Under the pieces are notes generated by a model, which was given only the letters and a program-made list of their open reading frames with translations, was not told the origin of the DNA and did no database searches. A DNA stretch of 36,010 nt, from positions 1-36,010 of the IMG/VR virus record IMGVR_UViG_3300042924_000765. The stretch is one strand, 5' to 3'. The stretch's first letter is position 1. Every line of letters starts with the position of its first letter. The position numbers and the translations under genes were made by a program. This DNA comes from a virus. Positions 27,491-35,445 of the stretch are shown piece after piece.

Positions 27491-28075
27491 ATGGCACAGA
27501 GACCAACCCGGCAGAAGAAAGACGACCGCATCCTGCACAAAGGAGCGACGGCCAATGAGATCAGAGCGGACCTATCGCTGGCACCATTCGACAAGGCTGT
27601 CCGCGAGATGGACAAGCGGTGGGGCGTAGATCGCCTGCCAGAACTTGTCTCGGTCGAGAGCGCCGCGAAATGGGGCAAGGCCGTCGCTGGCCTGAACGGT
27701 GCCATCGATGCACAAGATCCCGACAAGGTGAAGTTCTGGGTCGAGGTCTGCCTGCGCGGGCTGGCCGCGATGGACGCCGAAGCCGTCAGCCTCGGTCGGC
27801 CCGTGTCCGATCCCATGATCTGGGAATACGAATATGAGGGAACCACCTTCGGCATCATCGAGGATGGACGCGAATGGCCGGCAGCCTACGCCAAGCGTCC
27901 AGGCATCGCCATCCACACCATGCGCGAGGTGGCAGTGGCCCTGCACGCTCACCGCAATGGCCTTGTGGACGCGATCAAGCTATCCTTCCCCGGCGCCGAG
28001 GTGAAAGCCGTGCGCCGACCGCAGGCCGATCTGGAAGATGACTTTGACTTTCTCAGCGACGGGGTGATTGAGTGA
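27491..28075 (+). CDS. Hypothetical protein downstream of putative origin
   Basis: A 194-residue protein. A basic start (MAQRPTRQKKDDRILHKGAT) leads into helices (VESAAKWGKAVAGLNGAIDA, KFWVEVCLRGLAAMDAEAVS). An aromatic strand part follows (WEYEYEGTTFGIIEDGREWP), and the tail is acidic (DLEDDFDFLSDGVIE). No family recognised. The acidic tail and place within the replication arm allow a role as a replication accessory protein. It overlaps the next gene by GTGA. Confidence 0.65.
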   Translation: MAQRPTRQKKDDRILHKGATANEIRADLSLAPFDKAVREMDKRWGVDRLPELVSVESAAKWGKAVAGLNGAIDAQDPDKVKFWVEVCLRGLAAMDAEAVSLGRPVSDPMIWEYEYEGTTFGIIEDGREWPAAYAKRPGIAIHTMREVAVALHAHRNGLVDAIKLSFPGAEVKAVRRPQADLEDDFDFLSDGVIE

Positions 28076-28908
28076 ACGCCTATATCCTGCCAGACGGAAA
28101 CGTGCAAATCAGCTTCAGCGGTGGGCGCACGTCGGCTTACATGCTGCACCAGATCGCCGAGGCCAACAGCGGCATCCCTGATCGCTGCAAGGTGGTCTTT
28201 GCCAACACTGGCCGCGAAATGCCGCAGACCCTAGACTTCGTGCAGGAGGTTGGTGACCGCTGGAGCATCCCGATTGTCTGGGTCGAACGCATCAGCCAAA
28301 AGCCCGGCTTCAATGTCGTCTCGCACAACAGCGCATCAAGAGACGGCGAACCCTTCGAGGAACTGATCCGAAAGCGCAAATACCTGCCGAACCAGCAGGC
28401 CAGGTTTTGCACGGGTGATTTGAAGGTGAAGCCGTCTCGCGATTACCTGCGGTCTATCGGGTGGGAATATTGGATATCTGCTCTTGGCATCCGCGCAGAC
28501 GAACCTGGCCGCGTCAACCGTGAGCCTCAGAAAGAGCGTTGGCAGCGTTGGTATCCATTGGCCGACGCTGGTGTGTCCAAGCATCACGTCATGGCATTCT
28601 GGGCAGCGCAGCCATTCGATCTGCGCTTGCAGAACATCAAGGGCAACACGGCGCTGGGCAACTGTGATGGATGCTTTCTGAAGTCAGAGGCAACGCTTGC
28701 CATGCTGGCAAGAGACTTCCCAGATCGGCACGCATGGTGGGAGCGCATGGAAGCCCAGACCACAGAGGCCACGACATCAGCAGCCGCGCGCTTTCGCAAG
28801 GAATACACACGCAAGAGCCTGCGTGACTTCGTAGAACGGCAGGGCGATTGGATATTCAGCACCGAAGGCGTGCTGTGTCAGCAGGACGGGGGAGATTGCA
28901 CAGGATGA
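28072..28908 (+). CDS. PP-loop PAPS-reductase-like protein
   Basis: A 278-residue protein with a P-loop-like PP motif FSGGRTSAYML (residues 15-25), followed by KVVFANTGREMPQTLDFVQE, typical of phosphoadenosine phosphosulfate reductase-like ATP pyrophosphatases (also DndC). Cysteines at FCTGDLK and NCDGCFLK could bind a cluster or zinc. It may modify nucleotides, tRNA or DNA, or affect sulfur metabolism. It starts with GTG overlapping the preceding stop. Confidence 0.85.
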   Translation: MNAYILPDGNVQISFSGGRTSAYMLHQIAEANSGIPDRCKVVFANTGREMPQTLDFVQEVGDRWSIPIVWVERISQKPGFNVVSHNSASRDGEPFEELIRKRKYLPNQQARFCTGDLKVKPSRDYLRSIGWEYWISALGIRADEPGRVNREPQKERWQRWYPLADAGVSKHHVMAFWAAQPFDLRLQNIKGNTALGNCDGCFLKSEATLAMLARDFPDRHAWWERMEAQTTEATTSAAARFRKEYTRKSLRDFVERQGDWIFSTEGVLCQQDGGDCTG

Positions 28909-29268: not shown

Positions 29269-29652
29269 ATGCCAGCAGGACGCCCGAGCAAATACGATCC
29301 AGCCATGTGCGAGACCGTGATCCAATGCGGGCGCGAAGGCATGGGCAAGGCCGAAATGGCCGCAGAACTCGACATCGCCTATTCGACTTTCGATCTGTGG
29401 ACGCAAGAACACCCAGAATTTTCGGAAGCCGTAAAGCATGCACAGCGCCTCTCCCAAGCATGGTGGGAAAAGATGGGCCGCGTCTCGACCTTCGGCGGCG
29501 TCGATGGCTTCAACGCCACAAGCTACATTTTCCAGATGAAGAACCGTTTCCGTGCCGACTGGAACGACACGGTGAAGAGCGAACACAGCGGCCCAGACGG
29601 CGGCGCGATCATCCAGAAGATCGAGCGCGTCATCATTGATCCGAAGGACTGA
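29269..29652 (+). CDS. Terminase small subunit
   Basis: A 127-residue protein. The start MPAGRPSKYDPAMCETVIQC and the helix-turn-helix GMGKAEMAAELDIAYSTFDL followed by WTQEHPEFSEAVK are typical of phage small terminases that recognise the pac site. P22 gp3 has 162 residues, so it is compact. It starts after GAAGGTGGG. It is separated from the large subunit by a large polyvalent protein, which is unusual. Confidence 0.85.
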   Translation: MPAGRPSKYDPAMCETVIQCGREGMGKAEMAAELDIAYSTFDLWTQEHPEFSEAVKHAQRLSQAWWEKMGRVSTFGGVDGFNATSYIFQMKNRFRADWNDTVKSEHSGPDGGAIIQKIERVIIDPKD

Positions 29653-29655
29653 CGA

Positions 29656-32091
29656 ATGAAGCTGATCGATCCGGCAACAGGGCAGGCAGTCTGGGACAGC
29701 AACGACCCCAACGCTGGCCCCGTCCCGCCTGCGCCAGAAGGCCGTCAGTGGGTGCGCGTGGATGAGCCGGGCGACACGATGGCACCGCGCCGCACAGCGC
29801 CGGGCATCCTCGACATCGGCAACGGCGTCACCGAGCGGCTTGCGTTCCTGAACCAGACGTTCAACCCGGTCGAAGGCATCGGCAGCGCCATGCGGGCCGG
29901 ATCTCGCATGGTGGCGCCAGATCAAAGCTATTGGGACCGCATCGCATCACTGGGCGAGATGGCGTCAGGCGTGGCCAGCATCGCCGCGCCTATCGCTGCC
30001 GCCAAGGCTATCGGCGTGCCTGCTGCCAGCGCGATGATGGAGGGTCTTCTAGGGTTCTCGCCAGCGCAGCAAGCAGCAGGCGACACCATGCGCGCTGTTG
30101 GCCGTGATGTCGTGGAGCGCCTTAATCAGCCCGGCCAGATGCCGACGGTTTACAGCAACCCGATCCCCGGCGTTGGCCGCCCGCCGTTGACGTTTGATGA
30201 GGTCGCTAGGGCGATGCAGGAGGCACCTCTGGCCGAGGTCCGACGCATTACGCCAAGCGATATTCGTGACGCCAGGATCATCCCTACGGTGGCAGACCTG
30301 ACGCGCACTGGAGGATATTACACAGGCATCGACGCATCAAAGGTTGATGTGCCAGAGCCGATGATGGGAGGCCCTCGCTATCCTCTCTTGCAGTCTAGCC
30401 AACAGGCTGGCCTTGCGTGGGCTGTCCAAGGCAAGAGCATCGGGACCAAGAAGGCTGGATCTGGCGCCGATCTGATTGCTGTCACGGCGATGAACCCGAC
30501 AAGCCATCAGTCAAACATCAGCTTTATCAACTCACTGATCAAGACAACGTCGGCATATGTCAGGGACGGGCGCATCCAGCCCGAGGTATTGGGCGAGTTG
30601 GACGCCAGGGTAAGAACCTCGGCGGCTGGCGGAGATCCCGCGTTGGCACGCCTTGAGCGGTTCCCAGGATTTGAAAGCCCCAACCTGCAAGAGTTCATCA
30701 ACGGCGCAAGCTTCCAAGAGCGCAGCAGGATCGCCGACATCATCGGAAGCAAGGGCATGCAAGAGCAGGGCATGCCAAACGTAAACCGACTTCTTCAGGA
30801 AACGGTTGACCCGCTTTACGCAGGGGCAAACCCACGCGACACGCTCTTGTTCATTGAGCCAGACTTTAGCGCCCCGCCCGTCGATCTGTTGGCGGAGGGT
30901 TTGCCAGTCCATCCAAGTTATCGCTATGGCATCAGGGGACGCGTCTTCGGCGCGCTTGATCAGAACATCTCGACCTTTGAGATGTTTCCAGATTTCTGGG
31001 GCGAGAAGAACGTCAACGCATTCGGCGAGAGCTTCAACAAGGGTGGCCGCCGTGCCTTCGACATGTCGCTGCCGGTCCAAGAGGTCACAGGCAAGCAGGT
31101 CGAGAACCTCGAGCGTCTGTTGCAGTCCAGCAGCAATCAGTTCCCAGTTGGATCGGCTATGCGTCTGTCTCCAATCGACACGCGGATCGTCACCAACTCC
31201 CTACTGAACAGGTGGAAGCCGACCAACCAGCCAGTCAACACTGGCGGCGCATCTCCGCAGGCATTTGTTGATGCCATCACCAACAGCAAATATCGGCCTG
31301 CTCTGACGAACTACACCGCCCAGGACATCAAGGCCGGCGCGAAGTCTGGCGATCTTATCGCGTATCAGCTTGGCGATGACGACGTGTTCTTCGCCATTGA
31401 CGCAAAGCCCGATTACTCATGGGCCGGCGTTGACATGATACCGGGCGATAAGGCTTTGGTCGGTGTCGTCAGCAATGCGCCCGGCGCGAAAGGGACAGCC
31501 GCCCCGAGCGTGATGGCAAAGGCCATCGAGGACGGCGTCACGGTTCTTGACGCCTTCGCTGTGCCGTCAAAGAAGTTTCCTAATGGCTTCCTGCCGACCT
31601 ACTACAGAAAATTCGGCTTTGAGGAAGCTGGCCGGGTTCCTTTTGACAAGGAAATGTATATATCTGACCACGGAGAGCAGGCGTATAAAGATCTGCTGGA
31701 AGCTTGGCGGTCAGACGGATGGGACGAAAGCATGGGCATGCCGCCCGTCATCGTCATGCGGTGGAGTGGGAATGATGCAGACAGAGCAGCAACGGCGGCA
31801 GGCATTCGTGGCGCAGGTGCGCCAAGTCATCGGGCCGCGCCTGAAGGACTTATCCCAGAGGCAGAAGGACTTGCTGGACGCGGGGGTGAGCGACCTGTTT
31901 CGACAGAACAGGCCGGTGGCGGACGAGGAGTTGCTGGGGGAACTGGAACTGGTGACGGACTTCGTCTCGCCCCAGGGACAGGAGAAGCTGCAAAAGGCAT
32001 ATTGGGACTTACGCCTGAGCAACTCAGAAACCGGGGCATCCCAGAAGACCAAATCCAGCAACTGATGCAGTTGCGTGAACTAGAAAGATGA
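29656..32091 (+). CDS. Large polyvalent-type protein with GNAT-like domain
   Basis: An 811-residue protein between terS and terL. Residues 40-130 are Ala/Gly-rich and hydrophobic. The middle (150-520) resembles domains of large phage polyvalent proteins of unknown enzymatic type. Residues 520-700 look GNAT-like (VTVLDAFAVPSK, FLPTYYRKFGFEEAGRVPFD, PPVIVMRW). The last 105 residues are Gly-rich and unlike the rest; they overlap a second gene in another frame. Polyvalent proteins are thought to be injected with DNA to act on the host. The stop overlaps the terL start (ATGA). Confidence 0.7.
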   Translation: MKLIDPATGQAVWDSNDPNAGPVPPAPEGRQWVRVDEPGDTMAPRRTAPGILDIGNGVTERLAFLNQTFNPVEGIGSAMRAGSRMVAPDQSYWDRIASLGEMASGVASIAAPIAAAKAIGVPAASAMMEGLLGFSPAQQAAGDTMRAVGRDVVERLNQPGQMPTVYSNPIPGVGRPPLTFDEVARAMQEAPLAEVRRITPSDIRDARIIPTVADLTRTGGYYTGIDASKVDVPEPMMGGPRYPLLQSSQQAGLAWAVQGKSIGTKKAGSGADLIAVTAMNPTSHQSNISFINSLIKTTSAYVRDGRIQPEVLGELDARVRTSAAGGDPALARLERFPGFESPNLQEFINGASFQERSRIADIIGSKGMQEQGMPNVNRLLQETVDPLYAGANPRDTLLFIEPDFSAPPVDLLAEGLPVHPSYRYGIRGRVFGALDQNISTFEMFPDFWGEKNVNAFGESFNKGGRRAFDMSLPVQEVTGKQVENLERLLQSSSNQFPVGSAMRLSPIDTRIVTNSLLNRWKPTNQPVNTGGASPQAFVDAITNSKYRPALTNYTAQDIKAGAKSGDLIAYQLGDDDVFFAIDAKPDYSWAGVDMIPGDKALVGVVSNAPGAKGTAAPSVMAKAIEDGVTVLDAFAVPSKKFPNGFLPTYYRKFGFEEAGRVPFDKEMYISDHGEQAYKDLLEAWRSDGWDESMGMPPVIVMRWSGNDADRAATAAGIRGAGAPSHRAAPEGLIPEAEGLAGRGGERPVSTEQAGGGRGVAGGTGTGDGLRLAPGTGEAAKGILGLTPEQLRNRGIPEDQIQQLMQLRELER
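31772..32065 (+). CDS. Nested gene in second frame inside the polyvalent protein gene
   Basis: A 97-residue helical protein (MMQTEQQRRQAFVAQVRQVI, RLKDLSQRQKDLLDAGVSDL, LLGELELVTDFVSPQGQEKL). GGAG at 31763 gives a ribosome site for ATG 31772 or 31775. By hand count 79 of 97 codons end in G or C, against 35 of 97 for the overlapping frame. The phage's genes normally have G/C-rich third positions, so this is probably the older selected frame. Function unknown; the position before terL suggests packaging or head work. Confidence 0.7.
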   Translation: MMQTEQQRRQAFVAQVRQVIGPRLKDLSQRQKDLLDAGVSDLFRQNRPVADEELLGELELVTDFVSPQGQEKLQKAYWDLRLSNSETGASQKTKSSN

Positions 32092-33314
32092 AGCTCCAGC
32101 TAAAGACCCCACGCTGGTCTCTGCCGATCCTGAAGCGCCCCGACGCCCGCTATCTCGGGGCGTACGGTGGCCGAGGCTCAGGCAAGTCGCATTTCTTCGC
32201 AGAGATGTTGATTGAGCGCAGCGTCAGCGAAAAGGTTGACGCTGTCTGCGTGCGCGAGGTGCAGAAGTCTCTGGCCCAATCGGTCAAGAAGCTGATTGAG
32301 AACAAGATCGAGGAGATGGGCGTCGGCCACATGTTCGAGATCCAGCAGACGCAGATCAAGTCAGCCCAGGGCGGCGTGATCGTATTCCAGGGGATGCAGA
32401 ACCACACGGCAGACAGCATCAAGTCGTTGGAAGGTTTCGACATCGCGTGGGTGGAAGAAGCGCAGTCGATCAGCCAGTTCTCGCTGGACATCCTGCGCCC
32501 GACCATCCGCAAGCCCGCATCGCAGCTTTGGTTCACATGGAACCCGAGATACGACACTGACCCGATCGAGCAGTTGCTGCGTGGGCCTGGAGCGCCTGAC
32601 AAGACGGTGGTGATCGAGGTCAACTACAGCGACAACCCTTGGTTTCCCGAGGTGCTGCGCGAGGAAATGGAATACGACAAGCGGCGCGATCCTGACAAAT
32701 ACATGCACGTCTGGAAGGGCGAGTATGTCCGCAACAGCGAAACCCGCGTGTTCAAGAACTGGACCATCGAGGAGTTCGAGGCACCGCCAGACGCCGTGCA
32801 TCGCCTTGGTGCAGACTGGGGCTTTGCCACCGATCCGACCGTTGGCGTGCGCTGCCACATTATAGGACGGAAGCTATATATTGACCACGAGGCCTACCAG
32901 GTCGGCTGCGAGATCGTGGACACGCCGGCTCTGTTTATGACGATCCCCGACGCTGAACGCTGGCCGATGGTGGCCGACAGCGCGCGGCCCGAGACCATCA
33001 GCCACATGCGCAAGAACGGCTTCCCGAAGATCCAGCCCGCCGTCAAGGGGCCGAAGTCGGTCGAGGAGGGCGTCGAATGGCTGAAGTCTTTCGACATCGT
33101 TGTGCATCCCCGCTGCAAGCACACCATCGATGAATTGACGCTCTACAGCTACAAGACCGACCGCGACACGGGCAGCATTCTCCCGATGCTGGAGGACAAG
33201 GAAAACCACGTCATCGACGCTCTGCGCTATGCCTGCGAGGGCGCACGTCGGGCAGGCAAGCAGGAGAAGGCGAAGCCCCGCCTCGTTCCCGTCATGATGC
33301 CGATGGCACGGTGA
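32088..33314 (+). CDS. Terminase large subunit
   Basis: A 408-residue Terminase_3-type packaging motor. Walker A is GGRGSGKS (27-34), Walker B is DIAWVEEAQS with catalytic Glu at 123-124. The coupling motif region is WFTWNPRYDTDP. Nuclease acidic residues are Asp243 (GADWGFATDP), Asp297 (VADSARPE) and Asp377 (NHVIDALRYA). It is shorter than P22 gp2 (499). It translocates DNA through the portal and cuts concatemers. Confidence 0.93.
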   Translation: MKLQLKTPRWSLPILKRPDARYLGAYGGRGSGKSHFFAEMLIERSVSEKVDAVCVREVQKSLAQSVKKLIENKIEEMGVGHMFEIQQTQIKSAQGGVIVFQGMQNHTADSIKSLEGFDIAWVEEAQSISQFSLDILRPTIRKPASQLWFTWNPRYDTDPIEQLLRGPGAPDKTVVIEVNYSDNPWFPEVLREEMEYDKRRDPDKYMHVWKGEYVRNSETRVFKNWTIEEFEAPPDAVHRLGADWGFATDPTVGVRCHIIGRKLYIDHEAYQVGCEIVDTPALFMTIPDAERWPMVADSARPETISHMRKNGFPKIQPAVKGPKSVEEGVEWLKSFDIVVHPRCKHTIDELTLYSYKTDRDTGSILPMLEDKENHVIDALRYACEGARRAGKQEKAKPRLVPVMMPMAR

Positions 33315-33375: not shown

Positions 33376-35445
33376 TTGGCCCGCATGACCAAAGACCAGC
33401 GGCTTGCAAACGTCCATGCAGAAGCATTGGCCGAGTTCGATGACATCCAAGGCGTGATGCGCGATGAGCGTTTGCAGTGCCTGGAGGATCGCCGTTTCTA
33501 CTCCATCGCCGGCGCGCAGTGGGAGGGAAACCTCTATGAGCAATATCTGAACAAGCCCAAGTTCGAGGTGAACAAGGTCCACCTCGCCGTCATGCGGATC
33601 ATCAACGAATACCGCAACAACCGCATCACGGTTGACTTCGTCAGCAAGGACGGCACCGCCGACGACAAGCTGGCCGACGTGTGCGATGGGCTGTTCCGGG
33701 CCGACGAGCAGGACAGCGGCTCCAACGAAGCATACGACAACGCATTCGAGGAGGCCGTCGGTGGCGGCTTCGGTGCGTTCCGCCTGCGTGCCGTCTATGA
33801 AGACGAATACGACGAAGAGAACGAAAAGCAGCGCATTCGGATCGAACCGATCTACGACGCTGACAGCACGGTCTTCTTTGATCTGGACGCCAAGCGCCAG
33901 GACAAGGCCGACGCGCGGCTCTGCTACGTTCTGACCGCGATGACCCGCGACGCATACCGGGCAGCATGGGATGACGATCCGACCACCTGGCCGAAGGGCA
34001 TTGAGCAGTGGGCCTTTGACTGGGCCACGCCTGATGTCGTCTATGTGGCCGAGGTCTACCGCGTCGAGGAAGCGTCAGAAACCATCCGCATCTTCCAAAC
34101 CATCGACGGGCAGGAAGAAAAGTATTCGGAAAAGGACTTCGAGGACGACGAAGAACTTGAGATGATGCTGGAGGCTGTCGGCACCAAAGAGGTCCGCCAG
34201 CGCCGCGTCAAGCGCCGCAAGGTGCGCAAGTACATCATGTCAGGCGGCAAGGTGCTGGAAGACAGCGGCTACATCGCCGGCGACCAGATCCCGATTGTCC
34301 CGGTCTACGGCAAGCGTTGGTTCGTGGACAACATCGAGCGGTGCATGGGCCACGTCCGTCTGGCCAAGGATGCCCAGCGGCTGAAGAACATGCAGCTTTC
34401 CAAGCTGGGCGAGATCAGCGCGCTCTCGACCGTTGAGAAGCCGATCTTCACGCCCGAGCAGGTGGCTGGCCACGAAATGATGTGGTCCGAGGACAACCTG
34501 CGGAACTATCCCTATCTGCTGTTGAACACCGTGACCGACGCCAACGGTGGCGAGGTTCTGTCTGGCCCGGTCGGCTACACCAAGCCGCCGCAGATCCCGC
34601 CTGCATTGGCTGGCCTGTTGCAGATCACCGAGCAGGACATGAGCGATCTTCTGGGCAAGCCCGACGCTGCCGAGGAGGTCGTCTCCAACGTCAGCGGCAA
34701 GGCCGTCGAACTGATCCAGCAGCGCCTGGACATGCAGACCTTCATCTACATGTCGAACATGTCAAAGGCGATCAAGCGTTGCGGCGAGATCTGGCTTTCT
34801 ATGGCGCGCGACATCCTTGTCGAGCCTGGCCGCAAGATGAAGGCCGTTGGCGTTGGCGGTGAGTTGTCCAGCATTGAGATGGGCAAGCCGATCCTGAACG
34901 TCGAAACCGGCGAAGTGGAATATGAAAACGACCTGAGCAACGCCAAGTTCGACGTGGCTGTTGATGTCGGCCCGGCCAGCGCCACCAAGCGCAGCGCCAC
35001 GGTTCGCGCGCTGTTGGGCATGATCCAGCTTGCGCCAGATCCCGAGACGCAGCAGGTGCTGACATCGATGGCCATGATGAACATGGACGGCGAGGGCATC
35101 GGCGAGGTGCGCGCATACTTCCGCGACAAGCTGATCAAGATGGGCGTCATCCAGCCGACCGAGCAAGAAGGCGAGAAGCTGTTGGCCGAAATGCAGGCCG
35201 CGCAGCAGCCCGATCCGCAGGCGCAGTATCTGCAAGCCGCCGCGATGGAAGCGCAGGCCAAGGCAGGCCAGGCTCAGGCCAACACAGAATACACCTTGGC
35301 GCGTGCGGAAGAGACCCGCGCCAAGACCGTCGAGGTGCTTGCTGGTATTCAGCAGAAAGAGCGCACCAACGTAGTGAACACGGCGAAGGCTCTGCAAGAA
35401 GCTGTCGCCCCCGGAATGCGGCAACCACCCAGCCGCACAATGTAA
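33376..35445 (+). CDS. Portal protein, P22 gp1-like
   Basis: A 689-residue protein near the size of P22 gp1 (725) with the family's early pattern (YSIAGAQWEGNLYEQYLNKP, VNKVHLAVMRIINEYRNNRI). It forms the dodecameric DNA channel. The C-terminal 100 residues are a long Gln/Ala-rich helix (QAKAGQAQANTEYTLARAEE), corresponding to the P22 barrel. TTG 33376 is 9 nt after GAAAGG; ATG 33385 is an alternative with worse spacing. Confidence 0.9.
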   Translation: MARMTKDQRLANVHAEALAEFDDIQGVMRDERLQCLEDRRFYSIAGAQWEGNLYEQYLNKPKFEVNKVHLAVMRIINEYRNNRITVDFVSKDGTADDKLADVCDGLFRADEQDSGSNEAYDNAFEEAVGGGFGAFRLRAVYEDEYDEENEKQRIRIEPIYDADSTVFFDLDAKRQDKADARLCYVLTAMTRDAYRAAWDDDPTTWPKGIEQWAFDWATPDVVYVAEVYRVEEASETIRIFQTIDGQEEKYSEKDFEDDEELEMMLEAVGTKEVRQRRVKRRKVRKYIMSGGKVLEDSGYIAGDQIPIVPVYGKRWFVDNIERCMGHVRLAKDAQRLKNMQLSKLGEISALSTVEKPIFTPEQVAGHEMMWSEDNLRNYPYLLLNTVTDANGGEVLSGPVGYTKPPQIPPALAGLLQITEQDMSDLLGKPDAAEEVVSNVSGKAVELIQQRLDMQTFIYMSNMSKAIKRCGEIWLSMARDILVEPGRKMKAVGVGGELSSIEMGKPILNVETGEVEYENDLSNAKFDVAVDVGPASATKRSATVRALLGMIQLAPDPETQQVLTSMAMMNMDGEGIGEVRAYFRDKLIKMGVIQPTEQEGEKLLAEMQAAQQPDPQAQYLQAAAMEAQAKAGQAQANTEYTLARAEETRAKTVEVLAGIQQKERTNVVNTAKALQEAVAPGMRQPPSRTM

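Follow-up and report, generated by a model that had tools for sequence, protein, structure and literature searches.

The 3' end of a long gene in an IMG/VR virus record raises the question of whether the same bases encode a second protein and, if so, how the two reading frames came to share them. The stretch analysed here (the window, 36,010 bases) exhibits an 811-codon ORF on the plus strand (29656-32091), and inside this ORF a second frame, displaced by +1, is also open. Overlapping genes are commonly viewed as short-lived and as typical of very small viruses, and a gene nested in this way would probably escape gene callers in which long same-strand overlaps are forbidden. An earlier note on this DNA had described two open frames over about 290 bases and had taken the inner one for a gene. 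The first part of this description holds, both frames being open across 31772-32065.

The start of the nested frame needs correction. The earlier note had the gene begin at the ATG at 31772, a position where relatives exhibit ACA, ACG, CAG, GCG, CTG, ATA or AAG. The conserved start is instead the following codon, at 31775, for at about this position 81 of 84 distinct relatives have ATG and the remaining three GTG or TTG. Since ATG 31775 is conserved and ATG 31772 is not, the predicted product is 96 rather than 97 amino acids long (31775-32065, plus strand, stop codon TGA at 32063-32065). The ribosome site noticed before is present: a Shine-Dalgarno-like GGAG lies at 31763-31766, 8 nt upstream of ATG 31775, and is encoded in the M-(K/R)-W-x-G stretch, which is conserved in the long protein. 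A similar site (GGAG, GGAAAGG or the like) precedes the nested start in most of the 84 relatives and is absent in four.

In the scans for relatives, the queries were profile alignments, terL and the nested and long proteins; all relatives except one are uncultured virus contigs. Of the long family, 85 distinct 3' ends had sufficient sequence, and 84 were left once duplicate overlaps were removed. The +1 frame is open at the same site, for at least 65 codons, in all 84 distinct relatives, with identity in the core of the long protein as low as about 30%. The open stretch in relatives measures 77-115 codons and follows directly after the long-protein motif GWDES.G.P.V..M(K/R)W.G. Control windows of 75 codons, taken along 1,200 bases upstream, have an open +1 frame in only 0-13% of the relatives and an open +2 frame in 0-1%; at the nested site itself, the +2 frame is open in none of the 84. 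No relative (0/84) keeps the C-terminus of the long frame alone with stops in the nested frame. An open frame of this length in the window by itself is only mildly surprising, with P ~0.05 when the long-frame codons are drawn from the gene's own usage and P = 0.41 when codons are shuffled within the overlap. Permutation of synonymous codons is weak on single sequences and was therefore applied jointly across lineages; given the long proteins, the product over 16 lineages of less than 60% nucleotide identity yields a joint chance of ~1e-17.

Selection on the two frames was measured by pairwise counts, each change being classed by its effect in both frames, among pairs of no more than 0.30 divergence. 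These counts are simple, without multiple-hit correction, and the contrast that they reveal fades above 0.4 divergence, where the nested dNN/dSN is 1.04. For changes altering the long protein, the nested frame exhibits a dN/dS (dNN/dSN) of 0.53 (bootstrap over loci, 0.46-0.59), and its dNS/dSS is 0.19 where changes leave the long protein unaltered. The same measures for a pseudo +1 frame upstream, serving as a control, are 1.32 and 0.87. The long frame exhibits 1.02 and 0.36 in the overlap against 0.22 and 0.14 upstream. Changes that leave the long protein as it is but alter an amino acid in the other frame drop from a rate of 0.52 upstream to 0.16 in the overlap. Since the third positions of nested codons are the first positions of long codons, the pattern of substitutions also tells which frame is constrained: upstream, 68% fall at long third positions, while in the overlap 46% fall at nested third positions and 28% at long third positions. 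In 160 of 171 close pairs, conservation is higher in the nested protein than in the long one. By these counts, the nested frame is under purifying selection and under stronger constraint than the long frame in the overlap. The long frame is much relaxed there, yet still constrained where the nested frame is silent.

The nested protein is about 70-96 residues long and is characterised by the pattern LS..Q..LL...L.....(V/I)(T/S)..EI.G.YE....H..P. An AlphaFold2 model built with 36 relatives (mean pLDDT 89.5, pTM 0.73) exhibits four helices (residues 4-23, 28-43, 50-64 and 67-93) and is weak over about the last 15 residues only; the helical protein expected from the sequence is thus recovered in the prediction. 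No family match was found in Pfam (20 nested members), PHROGs or PDB sequences. TBD was rejected as a family for the nested protein, its best value over the 20 members (0.0035) arising from a 12-residue stretch of the window's protein, a chance-level match. The Foldseek matches of the model (E = 1.6 in the PDB, mostly DnaK; E = 1.3 in BFVD) were dismissed as generic helical ones. Annotated phage genomes (INPHARED) and plasmids contained no relative of the nested or the long protein at the limits used, two matches at E = 8-9 being disregarded. For scans with the nested protein alone, a first, divergent alignment had no stretch conserved enough, and a narrower alignment worked. Two such scans returned 60 loci, each of them nested in a member of this one long family, and no free-standing nested copy. 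Among the fetched loci, the long frame is open in 211 of 211 profile matches. Within the limits of the searched collections and papers, the nested protein represents a new family.

The long gene (29656-32091) encodes, according to its ORF, its relatives and Foldseek, an 811-aa polyvalent protein with a GNAT-like domain. Its conserved core (aa 181-703; 30196-31770), delineated by the alignments, folds confidently with AlphaFold2 and exhibits a match to phrog_2563 in 23 of 38 relatives. The GNAT fold was recognised by structure matching: the top PDB matches of the core in Foldseek are N-acetyltransferases (8zt3_E, prob 0.99; 3efa, prob 0.90; a third at 0.72; best E = 0.01), and the strand/helix order of GNAT proteins is found in the C-terminal part of the core (approximately 31354-31764). 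The core is followed by a Gly-rich linker (aa 721-774; 31816-31977) lying wholly inside the nested gene. The Gly-rich character described earlier for the long frame in the overlap is borne out, and the linker is also predicted to be disordered (model residues 541-594, pLDDT all below 50 and mostly 23-29). The last helices of the long protein (aa 773-808; model residues 593-628) are again confident. They belong to a C-terminal motif conserved in relatives (GILGLTPEQLRNRGIPEDQIQQ..., 31996-32088), which overlaps just the variable C-terminus of the nested protein. The gene is flanked by a terS-like gene upstream (29269-29652; phrog_309, E = 8e-29) and by terL downstream (32088-33314; Terminase_3, Pfam PF04466, E = 5e-38), both on the plus strand, terL being outside the unit. 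One relative (L034), whose open frame spans 1,970 codons or more, carries ART-PolyVal (E = 3e-12) and PcfJ domains. With several domains, conflict domains in this relative, and a place beside packaging genes, the long gene fits the GNAT-type polyvalent proteins of phages as described by Iyer et al. (2017, PMC5512222); such proteins are thought to be packaged and delivered.

From the conserved open frame, start and ribosome site, together with the selection on its amino acids, the nested frame is almost certainly a genuine gene, and there is a high probability that it is translated by internal initiation as proposed. In the arrangement that we favour, a gene of about 70-100 codons would sit out of frame (+1) in the linker directly after the GNAT-like domain. 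Its translation would start independently at the conserved ATG on the message of the polyvalent gene, with a Shine-Dalgarno spelled by the conserved M-K/R-W codons of the long protein. One message would thereby yield both proteins, the nested product being a small four-helix protein. The long protein would tolerate the overlap because at this point it consists of a disordered spacer that links the GNAT domain to the C-terminal helical tag.

How did the overlap arise? Somewhat favoured is a de novo origin compatible with this arrangement, in which the nested gene was overprinted in a pre-existing disordered linker in the ancestor of the family and then kept. Homologues of the nested protein were found only within the long family, in contrast to the GNAT domain with its wider relatives, and de novo frames in internal viral overlaps are most often in the +1 position (PMC8227390); a birth inside the existing linker is favoured on these two grounds. 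Also in line with it is one relative (L084) in which the GNAT core and the nested gene are both gone and the long protein's two end motifs exist without them, the C-terminal motif being kept before terL. On the other hand, a good fold and a conservation exceeding that of the long frame at this site are unusual for a young gene, and the relatives found include no outgroup without the nested frame. What is left in L084 is a 67-codon ORF between terS and terL (L084:3801-4004), in which the N-terminal motif (DEDFLAAGYTPEEISAYRG) is fused directly to the C-terminal one (TPEQLRNQGIPEDQIEQ). These motifs are similar to one another, and the ORF suggests end tags around an exchangeable cargo.

The function of the nested protein is a more tentative matter, as neither sequence nor structure searches gave a relative that points to one. 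It could be a dedicated partner of the GNAT polyvalent protein, restraining its activity or chaperoning it in the producing cell, although we put this somewhat below an even chance. Co-occurrence with the GNAT core follows from the overlap itself and is therefore weak evidence for a physical partnership. A function unrelated to the GNAT protein (e.g. in host takeover or anti-defence), with the overlap as the only link, is also a reasonable possibility: many small overlapping viral proteins are accessory (PMC8227390). Recombination never splits the pair, although the cassette is exchanged between phages, which speaks for a functional tie, but the overlap alone would enforce this. A doubtful extension of the partner idea is that the nested family exists only as a passenger in GNAT-effector linkers, a built-in immunity protein or chaperone, with effector and antidote encoded on the same bases. 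If true, recombination could not part the effector from its antidote when cassettes swap between phages. The GNAT toxin-antitoxin modules TacT/TacA, AtaT and KacT (PMC9177977) similarly pair a GNAT enzyme with a small partner protein, and TacT2 is weakly present among the Foldseek matches of the long protein (prob 0.28). However, their antitoxins are RHH/DUF1778 proteins encoded in a gene of their own. An RHH/DUF1778 identity was rejected for the nested protein, as no such Pfam match was obtained with 20 nested members and its model has four helices.

The history put forward in the earlier note is improbable. It held that read-through of the polyvalent gene ran over a small gene lying before terL, and created a new C-terminal tail of the long protein by overprinting; for this, the polyvalent gene would have lost its stop codon. 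The disorder and the weaker constraint of the long frame in the overlap would agree with such an event, and so would the codon usage of GC-rich relatives, in 12 of 12 of which the nested usage is the better fit. The distribution of the gene, however, does not support an origin before terL. Judging from gene order, the nested gene travels with the GNAT core and not with terL: it is present with the core away from any adjoining terL in three relatives (L156, L157 and L329, the last preceding genes that resemble capsid genes), is absent beside a TerL of 98-100% identity where the polyvalent cassette is a different one, and appeared as a stand-alone gene in neither of the two nested-only scans. 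A tail newly made by read-through is likewise not supported, as the conserved C-terminal motif of the long protein lies mostly beyond the nested gene, and the long gene of L028/L229, L193 and L290 extends over 362-487 residues from its GWDE motif on, far beyond the nested gene. An older overrun, before the radiation of the family and away from terL, may have occurred.

The codon bias which the earlier note had offered as evidence also fails to generalise. Its third-position G/C count for the nested frame (79 of 97 codons) is reproduced, and that for the long frame is 35 of 96 (35 of 97 in the note). In GC-rich relatives (own GC3 0.70) the nested GC3 is 0.79. In 43 AT-rich relatives (own GC3 0.31) it is still about 0.59, and there the nested usage is the better fit in only 9%, so that AT-rich relatives favour the long frame. 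The nested GC3 stays high even there because each nested third position coincides with a first position in the long frame, which is rich in Gly/Ala/Asp/Arg codons. Codon usage was thus rejected as a guide to the older frame, GC-rich and AT-rich relatives contradicting each other. Codon bias of a nested frame can mislead; the apparent fit here is a matter of frame geometry.

Two explanations without a separate nested gene product fare much worse than internal initiation. Programmed frameshifting into the +1 frame, giving a fusion of the long and nested sequences, is very unlikely: the frame is indeed +1 and in the window it is open upstream as far as 31514, but in most relatives the +1 frame is closed by a stop about 5 codons ahead of the conserved ATG, and conservation extends to the ATG and the Shine-Dalgarno but not to the codons from this stop to the ATG. 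Least credible is a chance open frame without product, due to a long frame rich in GC and Gly, for although the probability of an open frame is often 0.1-0.4 for single loci (0.05-0.41 for the window) and the GC3 contrast is largely an effect of frame position, the frame is kept in every relative, many of them AT-rich, with purifying selection, a conserved start and Shine-Dalgarno, and a confident fold.

An overlapping gene is a known kind of arrangement; judged by the searched collections and papers, what is new is the family, its setting and how deeply it is conserved. Like the overprinted overlaps of viruses (PMC8227390), the present one has two same-strand frames, an internal +1 displacement, one disordered partner and selection in both frames. 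Those overlaps are best studied in viruses with small genomes, and the de novo ones tend to be taxonomically narrow; in contrast, the nested gene is found in tailed dsDNA phages, and it is kept at about 30% core identity and across genome contexts. The out-of-frame HNH insertions of the ShiLan type in phage methylase genes (PMC11855218) also hide a complete gene in a host frame that stays open as a loop. They are, however, mobile and encode an HNH endonuclease, whereas here a small helical protein is found in every relative. The nested protein exhibits no HNH match in Pfam, PHROGs or the PDB nor among significant Foldseek matches, and an HNH insertion was thus rejected. A mobile insertion was rejected as well: none of the 84 relatives has the core with an empty site, and L084 lost the core and the nested gene together. 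The GNAT polyvalent proteins (PMC5512222) share with the long gene the multidomain build, the GNAT-like domain and the location beside the portal-terminase genes, ART-PolyVal being present in L034. They differ in that an overlapping partner gene was not found in the searched part of that text, and in that the long core has no Pfam GNAT match. A fully embedded gene is thus retained without exception in tailed-phage relatives whose host proteins have diverged to as little as about 30% identity, across moved contexts, and standard annotation would miss the whole protein family. The locus offers a clean case in which to study how a folded protein in another frame is accommodated by a disordered linker, and whether the overlap locks an effector to its partner.

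Several minor observations concern the neighbourhood. A PAPS-reductase-like gene (28072-28908; PF01507, phrog_424) lies directly upstream of the packaging genes, and a P22-like portal (33376-35445; PF16510, E = 3e-160) adjoins the Terminase_3 TerL. Cassettes are swapped at the start of the long gene (29656-30135): in L045, L047, L048, L054 and L065 the first 150 residues are common and TerL is 85-100% identical, while the middle and end domains differ. The swapped cassette of L054 has a sub-threshold ART-PolyVal match, and several swapped cassettes end in (G/S)(T/S)RNYV(I/V)FDENLI.IV.KYGIAG. The terS gene (29269-29652) is swapped independently, TerS being 37-57% identical where TerL is 99% identical, with the last 20-25 residues in common (SGPDGGAI..KIERVIIDPKD). 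In L028:4001-7390, a contig shared with L229, the long gene leads into a second N-terminal-like segment (SLMNVGGIGDRLALVNKYLNPVEAIGGAMRAG) and an apparent ART-type domain, a tandem of two cassettes. The sole relative in cellular genomes (L236) is on a proteobacterial MAG contig (CAIKZZ010000023.1), perhaps a provirus or a binned phage contig, where the long frame enters unrelated-looking sequence after the nested gene.
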